In this document: positions 36,490-55,628 of the stretch, one piece after another
Numbering within the stretch: the stretch's first letter is position 1
How the letters are laid out: the number at the start of each line of letters is the position of its first letter
Source: an uncultured Bacteroides sp.
GTDB taxonomy: Bacteria > Bacteroidota > Bacteroidia > Bacteroidales > UBA932
Direction of reading: 5' to 3'
NCBI GenBank assembly: GCA_945874355.1
Contig: CAMCGB010000005.1
Span: 62,001-126,000, forward strand
Length of the DNA stretch: 64,000 nt
The notes under the pieces: model-generated
Seen by the model: only the letters and a program-made list of their open reading frames with translations
Told to the model about the DNA's origin: nothing
Databases searched by the model: none
Made by a program: the position numbers and the translations under genes

Positions 36490-36493
36490 TCGA

Positions 36494-36658
36494 GCAATTC
36501 ACCTCGCTCAACGAGGTTTACTAGTCAACTGATTATTAACAACATAGCAACTTACCCTATGTAAGGTGGCGACTAAATGATGCCACCTGCAACACCGCTA
36601 AAAGTTAACACTTTGATATTCGGTGCATTAGCATTTTCGGCTGTGTAAGGTGAATTGC
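36494..36658. repeat. 165-bp inverted-repeat element, copy 1
   Basis: Ends are perfect 11-bp inverted repeats, GCAATTCACCT and AGGTGAATTGC, extendable outward with one mismatch to CTTCG. A central hairpin AGGTGGC/GCCACCT lies at offsets 71-77 and 89-95. Extra small hairpins (ACCTCG/CGAGGT, ACATAG/CTATGT) occur in this copy. Copy 2 at 53923 has the same length and offsets, with roughly 60-65% identity over the first half by eye. No ORF and no clear target-site duplication. Confidence 0.85.
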
Positions 36659-36669
36659 ACGAAGGCGCG

Positions 36670-53392: not shown

Positions 53393-53454
53393 CCACTTCG
53401 TGGCAGGCTTTCGTGAAATTCACCGAGCGGTCCCCACGAGCGACAGTGAAGTGG
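53393..53454. repeat. Inverted repeat after the DUF799 stop
   Basis: CCACTTC (53393-53399) and GAAGTGG (53448-53454) flank a GC-rich interior that also contains GCCAC/GTGGC. It could be the operon terminator without a T-run or a decayed repeat. Confidence 0.4.
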
Positions 53455-53519
53455 GCTGATAGTTTTCACAAAGCGATGACGTATTGATGTGATGGGGTAA
53501 CTCATCTGCCTATTGAGGA

Positions 53520-53615
53520 AAATGGGTTTTAGCAATTTTGGGGCTTTTTTTGCTATTTTGTTGATTTCGGAGGCATTTTAGCAATTTTTGACCGATTTTT
53601 TGCCATTTTTCGATG
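53520..53615. other. A/T-rich block with phased GCNATTTT motifs
   Basis: GCAATTTTG (53532), GCTATTTTG (53552), GCATTTTAG (53573), GCAATTTTTG (53581) and GCCATTTTTC (53602) recur at mostly 20-21 bp steps, about two helical turns, suggesting bent DNA. A minus-strand ORF through it (53510-53743) is Lys/Gln/Asn-rich and looks spurious. The rest of 53455-53922 shows nothing I recognise. Confidence 0.45.
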
Positions 53616-53922
53616 AGCGGAGAAGGTATGGGCACAGGGGATGAGCACCAGGGCAAGGGCATCGCGGCTAGTTCGTTAGGGAATGGGCACTTGACAGATG
53701 GGCACCGCAGCCGGAATATATGGTCTCCGGCTGCTCCGGCCACAACTGCGGGGAGCTATGGAGGGCTCTCCTCGCTGTGGCCGTTGCCGGCTTTGGGGCA
53801 CAGCACACCACCCTGCTTTGATTGTACCACTGAGGCGCTATCGCAGAGATGTACAACATAGATTACTCCTTTCGAGCACATAGCTGATCTCATCCCTGAT
53901 GGTTGATGGTTTTGTCCCTCGT

Positions 53923-54087
53923 GCAAATCACCTCGCACGGGGGAGTTTACGAAATCACTGACTATAAACAAGATGCCAATTTGCTCCATGTGAGGTGGCG
54001 GCAAATTGATGCCACCTATCACAGGGTAATTAACTATATTGCTTATAATCATTAAATTAGCAGAATCCGGCGTGCTAGGTGATTTGC
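53923..54087. repeat. 165-bp inverted-repeat element, copy 2
   Basis: Ends are perfect 11-bp inverted repeats, GCAAATCACCT and AGGTGATTTGC. Compared with copy 1 (36494) both arms differ at the matching base, so pairing is kept. The central hairpin AGGTGGC/GCCACCT is at the same offsets (71-77, 89-95). Shared internal motifs include GTTTAC, TCA-CTGA-TAT-AACAA and TGATGCCACCT. Total length is identical to copy 1. Confidence 0.85.
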
Positions 54088-54117
54088 TCGAACAAGCACG
54101 ACTGCTATGACAGAGGG

Positions 54118-54235
54118 AGGCAGCTGCAAAGGCAGGCGGGCGGAGAGTTCTGAACGGGACTTTGCAAGCGCAATACGAGCCTTAGGCGAGCTAAAGCGGT
54201 CCCTGAAGAACTCTTCCCCGATGCCGCAGCTGCCT
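54118..54235. repeat. Long imperfect hairpin element
   Basis: Nested arms AGGCAGCTGC/GCAGCTGCCT, AGAGTTC/GAACTCT and GGGAC/GTCCC enclose GCAAGCGC...GCGAGC. It corresponds in place to 36670-36857. The core words GGGACTTTGCAAGCGCA and GCGAGCTAAAGCGGTCCCTG recur at 60472-60514 in swapped order. Confidence 0.75.
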
Positions 54236-54250
54236 TGGTGCTAAGGTAAT

Positions 54251-54360
54251 AGATTTCTCCACTCGCTTCGCTCGGTCGAAATGACAGAGGGGAGGCGCGA
54301 AATGACAGGAGAAAGCGCTCGGTCGAAATGACAGGTGAGGGCGCCTGGTCGAATGGACAG
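54251..54360. repeat. AGATTTCTC-family repeat with tandem TCGAAATGACAG units
   Basis: AGATTTCTCCACTCGCTTCG followed by CTCGGTCGAAATGACAG and three further degenerate copies of the CGAAATGACAG word. It ends 17 bases before the lpxK stop. Same family as 27442, 36876 and 60398. Confidence 0.85.
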
Positions 54361-54377
54361 AGGGCAGGAGTGGGGCG

Positions 54378-55628
54378 CTAGAGGGTGTCGAGGAGGGAGC
54401 TGAAGATGGACTGCTCGTGGGCAGAGACAAAGCGGGTCTCGATGGGGACATAGAAGCAGCGCTCCATAATCTCGGCGGGCATACCCTTGAAGTCAAGCAG
54501 CCGCTGAACGTCCTTCTCGGTGGTGATGATCGATGCCGTAGGGTTCTTGCGCAGAATCGACTGCAGGCGGTTGATGTCGGACCACTCGTACTTGTGATGG
54601 TCAGGGAAACGCAGCCGGGAGACTATCTTGTAAGTGTCACTGAGATAATTCTTCAGCGCAGTATCATTGGCGATACCGGAAAGAAGAATGGCCTTCTTGG
54701 AGTAGACATAGCGGGGCTCGGTAGAAGGGAAAGCCCTCTCCAGAGGCAGATAGGCGATGGTGGCAAAGAACAGCTTCAGCGGACGAAGCGCCGGCCTGGC
54801 CGAAGGACCGGAAGCACCACCAGCAGCAGTACCCGCCGAAGCACCAGATCCGGCAGAACCAGCCGAACCGGAAGCAGAATCGGCAGCCGAACCAGAGCCA
54901 GCACCGGAAGCAATAGCATAACAAGTGCAGGTCCCCGGGTCATAATTCATAAGAGAAAGCGAAGCGGCAAAAGCTCTCTTCGCCTCATCGTCCATATCCG
55001 GGCTGCACTTCGTAACCACAATAACATCAGCACTATAAATCCGCTCCTTAAGATCGCGCAAGCGCCCCAGCGGAAGAAGACAGTCCTTATTCACCGGACG
55101 GAGACTGTTGACGAGAACCACCGACAGGTCCGCACGCAACTTCCGGTACTGAAACGCATCATCCAGCACAATAAAGTCAGCCTTGGGGAAATTCGAATCC
55201 CAACACTGAGCCGCCTTCTTCGAAGAAGACTGAAGAGACTCAGGATCGCAAAGGAACTTGCAGGCCTCAACCCTGTTCTTATCCACAGCTACAGTCACCG
55301 CAGGAAACTTCTTCTTTATCTGCAGAGGCTCGTCGCCGAACATCAGGCTGCTGCCCCCAACCGTTACCTGCTGGAAGCCCTTGCTCTCCCGCTTATAACC
55401 CCTCGAAAGCACAGCGAGCTGCGAATACTGCCACCTGCGACTCTCCTGCAAAAGACGCAGAACCATCTCCACGAAAGGAGTCTTGCCCGTCCCTCCTGCC
55501 GTCACATTACCCACGCAGACGCTGGGAACGGAAGGAGAAAAAATCTTCCTGCGAGCGGAAGAATAATAACGGTCCCTCAGCTTCAGGCTGAGATAATATG
55601 GAAAAAGAATTATACGGTCAAAACTCAT
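54378..55628 (-). CDS. lpxK: Tetraacyldisaccharide 4'-kinase with a low-complexity insertion
   Basis: 416 residues, longer than the usual 340-370. P-loop GNVTAGGTGKTP (40-51), VLSRGYKR, GDEPLQIKKK, DFIVLDDAFQ and the ERIYSADVIVVTK strand identify LpxK, which phosphorylates the lipid A disaccharide at 4' at the inner membrane. Residues about 241-282 are an almost pure Gly/Ser/Ala run (ASGAGSGSAADSASGSAGSA...) not expected in the family, falling between a core strand and KLFFATIAYLPLERAF. The gene overlaps dusB by 11 bp. Confidence 0.93.
   Translation of the reverse strand: MSFDRIILFPYYLSLKLRDRYYSSARRKIFSPSVPSVCVGNVTAGGTGKTPFVEMVLRLLQESRRWQYSQLAVLSRGYKRESKGFQQVTVGGSSLMFGDEPLQIKKKFPAVTVAVDKNRVEACKFLCDPESLQSSSKKAAQCWDSNFPKADFIVLDDAFQYRKLRADLSVVLVNSLRPVNKDCLLPLGRLRDLKERIYSADVIVVTKCSPDMDDEAKRAFAASLSLMNYDPGTCTCYAIASGAGSGSAADSASGSAGSAGSGASAGTAAGGASGPSARPALRPLKLFFATIAYLPLERAFPSTEPRYVYSKKAILLSGIANDTALKNYLSDTYKIVSRLRFPDHHKYEWSDINRLQSILRKNPTASIITTEKDVQRLLDFKGMPAEIMERCFYVPIETRFVSAHEQSIFSSLLDTL

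Follow-up and report, generated by a model that had tools for sequence, protein, structure and literature searches.

Within a 64,000-nucleotide stretch of DNA from an uncultured Bacteroides sp. (hereafter the window), a non-coding palindromic unit occurs twice: copy A at positions 36494-36658 and copy B at 53923-54087, the latter in the intergenic gap beside an lpxK-like open reading frame. Both copies are exactly 165 bp long and end in perfectly paired 11-bp inverted repeats (GCAATTCACCT/AGGTGAATTGC in copy A and GCAAATCACCT/AGGTGATTTGC in copy B) that carry one mirrored base difference, and the inner hairpin sits at the same place in both, just as the original prediction had described; its AGGTGGC arm has offset 70 and its GCCACCT arm offset 88. 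The two copies are 65% identical (ungapped). Since their 25-nt centre alone (allowing up to 3 mismatches) was expected 0.00 times in the window and occurs twice, the resemblance is no chance match. The inverted ends run 4 bp beyond the 165-bp unit on each side, as TCGWGCAAWTCACCT, and the unit is therefore better drawn as ~173 bp (Table 1). As single-stranded DNA, both copies are predicted to fold strongly (z of -5.77 and -3.82), with no shuffled sequence being as stable.

Table 1. Parts of the two REPIN-like element copies in the window (letters of right-half parts are those of the + strand)
Feature	Position	Strand	Sequence	Basis
Copy B, whole unit with 15-bp inverted ends	53919..54091	.	TCGWGCAAWTCACCT (ends)	Alignment A1, 17 own-genome copies
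Copy B, outer box, left	53923..53938	+	GCAAATCACCTCGCAC	
Copy B, left-half core	53959..53968	+	TGACTATAAA (class consensus TGATTATCAA)	
Copy B, central hairpin (two inner boxes)	53993..54017	.	AGGTGGCGGCAAATTGATGCCACCT	
Copy B, right-half core	54043..54051	-	TTATAATCA	
Copy B, outer box, right	54072..54087	-	GTGCTAGGTGATTTGC	
Copy A, whole unit	36490..36662	.		
Copy A, outer box, left	36494..36509	+	GCAATTCACCTCGCTC	
Copy A, left-half core	36530..36539	+	TGATTATTAA	
Copy A, central hairpin	36564..36588	.	AGGTGGCGACTAAATGATGCCACCT	
Copy A, right-half core	36613..36621	-	TTGATATTC	
Copy A, outer box, right	36643..36658	-	GTGTAAGGTGAATTGC	

DNA, pattern and profile searches of the whole genome to which the window belongs (2.06 Mb, 33 contigs) recovered ~22 copies of the element, so that the match persists outside the two window copies. 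Full copies measure 165, 154 or 144 bp. Two inverted half-modules, each arranged as box-core-box', make up the element, an imperfect palindrome; once reverse-complemented, the right halves align with the left ones as a single family. Half-modules are either 82 bp (L) or 71 bp (S) long, a step of 11 bp, with L+L giving the 165-bp and L+S the 154-bp copies; they fall into several subtypes, which are combined differently from copy to copy. A third type of half-module, GCCATTCTAGGCATCTACAAGGCACATCC, which lacks the TGATTATCA core, was seen at loci L178, L283, L181 and L085, in other genomes (G144, G313 and G100) and, in a diverged form, in the window's own genome, and from this recurrence half-modules seem exchangeable. 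The copies are intergenic, with flanking genes in mixed orientations, and a rough ORF call revealed no consistent position or orientation of the copies relative to genes. The closest pair of own-genome copies is 90% identical and the median pair 60%.

Relatives of the element were sought in the rest of the genus. When one copy served as the query in a plain DNA search of 60 relatives, nothing outside the own genome matched, and a half-module profile was required; this sequence-only profile, R1, was built exclusively from own-genome copies and applied first to 150 genomes of the genus and then to 400. With it, the element was seen to recur in other species with the same boundaries.

The original prediction held that the base differing between copies A and B changes on both arms, and took this compensatory change as a sign of selection on pairing, either for an RNA structure or for recognition by a dimeric protein or transposase. 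The change on both arms holds for the two window copies; across all 17 alignable own-genome copies, however, the mirrored A/T position (columns 13/170) forms a pair in 11 copies but not in the other 6, in which the arms vary independently at this base, the outcome that the original prediction had named as refuting it. At the adjacent W of TCGWGC (columns 8/175), 6 of the 15 copies that have letters there retain the pair and 9 do not; 8 copies lack it at the first position after CACCT, and pairs other than the highlighted one are broken in 8-13 of 17. For the mirrored A/T position, a match excess as high as that observed arose in 200 of 5000 shuffles. Overall, 82.8% of cells are paired as opposed to 80.2% in shuffles (5 of 500 as high) and 32-45% in slid structures, and the covariation score of the 17-copy alignment exceeds that of nearly all shuffles; the overall pairing excess is a measure of shared palindromy, not of base-by-base compensation. 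As proof of selection on pairing, the compensatory change is thus weak: the position is degenerate, the mirrored A/T difference there is tolerated, and it is not by itself a sign of selection.

A different kind of concerted change emerged from the boxes. These differ between genomes (CACCTCGCAC, CACCGCGCAA, CACCGAGCA, CACCTGGAACC and others), and within one element the four boxes are more alike than boxes of different elements are. In the cross-genome set, freed of own-genome redundancy, all 6 of 6 box-to-box comparisons exceeded the shuffles (at most 8 of 5000 each), and within the own genome only the two outer boxes co-vary (23 of 5000 shuffles), with no covariation of the inner boxes found there; the shuffles ignore the relatedness of the elements, and these values are indicative. 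A concerted change of four boxes is what one would expect if a single cognate protein read them or if halves were copied repeatedly, and is not predicted by pairwise RNA compensation. This bears on the RNA branch of the original prediction, under which the unit would be a transcribed structure, cis-regulatory or terminator-like, held by pairing selection. Strong predicted folding, together with paired cells and a covariation score above nearly all shuffles, would suit such a structure, but no Rfam match to the 165-bp element was found, its copies keep no constant place or orientation beside genes, the highlighted pair and others are often broken, and the four boxes change jointly rather than pair by pair. 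We consider it very unlikely, the joint change fitting instead a cognate protein and hairpin DNA.

A candidate for such a protein came from the R1 matches themselves, which led to a 284-aa protein in two genomes (G075 and G078) with a weak match to the REP-associated tyrosine transposases (RAYTs). Of the 300 species of the genus that were sampled, 250 have homologues of this protein, often several. In G022, a close relative of the window element lies ~260 bp from the only RAYT found, and in G313 another lies ~100 bp from a RAYT; in G263, diverged relatives stand on both sides of the RAYT, with an R1 match ~160 bp away, and in G381 an element fragment lies ~50 bp from the RAYT. Judging by their sequences, only the RAYT neighbours in G022 and G313 (R1 scores of 43-52 bits, as against weak scores of 23-27 bits in G263 and G381) are close relatives of the window element. 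From the gene and genome lengths, we infer that a random site in G022 would fall within 450 bp of its single RAYT about once in 1000. In a tree of 64 proteins, the RAYTs of these four genomes form one supported clade (96/91), within which a further RAYT, G096c, is nested; no R1 match was found beside the latter.

We also examined RAYT loci by a search made without the window element. Four-box palindromes with a box period of 78-88 bp were present at 23 of 50 RAYT loci (450-bp flanks); none was found in 297 Markov-shuffled flanks or in 100 in-gene stretches. The parameters had been relaxed after a stricter run (11 of 30 loci), and closely related RAYT loci are not fully independent. The boxes at these loci differ by family, and the halves share the core consensus TGattaTCAa, flanked by ttttG.AA and TTacaaa; the window element has this core and these flanks.

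The RAYT proteins are 284-324 aa long, with a long C-terminal part, a HUH-Tyr spacing of about 57-60 residues and the motif YILRNP or YVVKNP. H79, H81 and Y138 (HxH plus a single Tyr) are invariant in 33 RAYT proteins, as is the Asn following the Tyr. NF047646 (REP-associated tyrosine transposase) is the best family for 32 of the 33, with scores below its cut-off (34.7 bits against a cut-off of 80 for the G022 RAYT). An AlphaFold2 model of the G022 RAYT (pLDDT 86) had as its top PDB match 4er8, E. coli TnpA_REP with a REP hairpin (E 9.5e-4, prob 1.00), at a target-normalised TM-score of only 0.57 and 15% identity, and its next-best matches were IS200/IS605 TnpA. The modelled RAYT neighbour is thus predicted to have the TnpA_REP fold. 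When named genomes were searched with the G022 RAYT, the sole match was the protein's own record, the MAG Bacteroidales bacterium SUG1259 (JAQXJU010000012.1).

The transposase branch of the original prediction is supported by the adjacency of related elements to one RAYT clade. The target-site duplications that a DDE transposase should leave were not found at the own-genome copies, whose boundary repeats are no longer than those obtained with swapped partners. The lack of duplications is as expected for Y1 enzymes. It makes it very unlikely that the element is a classical MITE whose 15-bp terminal inverted repeats TCGWGCAAWTCACCT are recognised by a mobilising DDE transposase, even though the element resembles one in being non-coding, dispersed, of fixed length and bounded by (near-)perfect terminal inverted repeats. 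Furthermore, the own-genome matches included no larger element that combined these ends with a transposase, conservation extends to four boxes and two cores rather than to the ends alone, and the enzyme to which the element is linked is of the Y1 type. Intergenic palindromes of 100-170 bp with moderate copy number, such as ERIC, Correia/NEMIS and comparable repeats of enterobacteria or Neisseria, to which the element is likened by description only, are usually viewed as MITEs without a RAYT.

In the window's own genome, a profile built from 30 RAYTs (A3) gave no match at E<=10, whereas it matched the controls G022, G144, G100 and G096. This is the meaningful search, given that PF01797, which likewise has no match in the genome, has low sensitivity for these proteins (it recovered 0 of 2 RAYTs in one test and 16 of 33 in another). 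P0001 was not found in plasmids. Several contigs of the 33-contig assembly end inside or beside element copies, so that a RAYT may lie in an assembly gap. As no RAYT is detectable and no two copies are more than 90% identical, there is no sign of recent mobilisation; any mobilisation in this genome would lie in the past, and the pairing of element and cognate RAYT is taken over from relatives.

The same observations would suit a unit that is simply one tile of an intergenic repeat mosaic, scattered by recombination or by mobile elements of other kinds; its connection to RAYTs would then be ancestral, with no bearing on where copies lie today. The most-alike copies share long flanks as well, up to ~240 bp in several and 240 bp or more in some of the most similar, positions 53916-54334 of the window are 87% identical to another own-genome locus, and positions 53400-54370 consist largely of other dispersed repeats. 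At least some copies thus spread as larger mosaic tiles and not by cutting at the element ends. However, in copies such as L083, L085, L087, L090, L096 and L098 the shared sequence is limited to the unit, with divergence beyond about TTCGW, so the unit itself has been dispersed, and other species hold the unit with unchanged boundaries. We therefore regard mosaic spread as an unlikely account of the population.

We favour, with a probability of roughly 0.74, the reading that the 165/154-bp unit represents a relic population of REPIN-like non-autonomous mobile elements of the RAYT-linked class, one that in the window's genome is old and probably orphaned. In each half-module, an AT-rich core around TGATTATCA is framed by an outer and an inner box. 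When single-stranded, for instance on the lagging-strand template, the element would fold into a long hairpin, the boxes of which would be read by a cognate HUH/Y1 transposase (a TnpA_REP-like RAYT) that may cut near the element ends and rejoin the element elsewhere without target duplication. A RAYT of this kind would once have been present in the window's genome and later lost, the elements decaying since.

Like the REPINs described by Bertels and Rainey (2011, PMC3116915), the element is an inverted pair of palindromic modules with a predicted single-stranded DNA hairpin, present in multiple dispersed extragenic copies and linked to a Y1 transposase. A cognate RAYT flanked by copies was found in G022 and G313, more weakly in G263 and G381, and not in the own genome. 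The half-modules differ from the short REP in being 71-82 bp long, with two boxes and a conserved AT-rich core, and the copies, in a host genome without a detectable RAYT, number ~22 rather than hundreds, which is modest next to Pseudomonas. E. coli TnpA_REP and its REP/BIME sequences, the best fold match, share inverted REP pairs adjoining the gene, yet protein identity is low (15%) and E. coli REPs are much shorter and have a GTAG foot; no GT[AG]G-type tetranucleotide foot is visible here, the element ends being TCGWGCAAWTCACCT.

According to Quentin et al. (2018, PMC6006769), TnpA_Y1 subclass 2.6, which corresponds to RAYT group 5 of Bacteroidetes, has atypical flanking structures without GT[AG]G and with copies elsewhere in the genome, a median HUH-Tyr distance of 82 and the motif YIH[QN]NP. 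The RAYTs described here share with that subclass the Bacteroidetes host, the atypical flanks and their copies elsewhere, the HUH motif and the Y..NP signature, but judging by their HUH-Tyr spacing (57-60 residues), length (284-324 aa) and YILRNP/YVVKNP motifs, they do not plainly belong to it. No description of a four-box, two-core geometry appears in that main text, and we found no earlier account of such a REPIN-like architecture in the REPIN/RAYT papers considered.

More tentatively, there may exist a genus-wide, undescribed RAYT subclass with a REPIN architecture of its own, a possibility we think doubtful at present: four family-specific boxes on a rigid ~83-bp period, two near-invariant TGATTATCA cores held by a second shared factor, half-modules that shorten only by one helical turn (11 bp), and a separate box for each RAYT clade. 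If so, the code between transposase and REP would be readable. How REPs are recognised by their transposases, and why the two are retained together in bacteria, can be approached in this genus: its many species with palindromes adjoining RAYT genes, different boxes and the same core form a natural series for reading residues against boxes, and genomes with elements but no detectable RAYT would allow tests of REPIN persistence without a transposase.

Several further observations concern the surroundings of the copies. Two diverged copies (L102 at C9:2030 and L103 at C9:54547) are apparently split at the centre by an IS-like sequence (GGACGGTTTTACC...), and the element centre is perhaps a preferred IS target. 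CTTCGTGAAATTCACC was considered as the end of an autonomous element and rejected, its matches being other copies, relics and IS-interrupted copies, none of them autonomous. A second repeat, GTAAGCGTCTCCGCGATGACGC, with a small hairpin and a GTAA-like foot, may be a second, more classical REP family; it terminates several contigs beside or inside element copies and also adjoins RAYT genes in G022 and G381. It was noted at L097 1-55, at the ends of L094, L100 and L274, at L099 1-56 and at L240 near the RAYT 3' end, and was not found in the window. The intergenic gap beside lpxK (53400-54370) is a mosaic of dispersed repeats, e.g., 53527-53788, 53700-53790 and 54107-54343, which are up to 97% identical to sequences elsewhere in the genome (loci L002, L003, L004, L007, L046, L102 and L103). 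The lpxK-like ORF itself (54378-55628) carries at 54805-54920, on the minus strand, a repetitive insert rich in Ser, Ala and Gly, GAGSGSAADSASGSAGSAGSGASAGTAAGGASGPSA, which is unusual for this enzyme.
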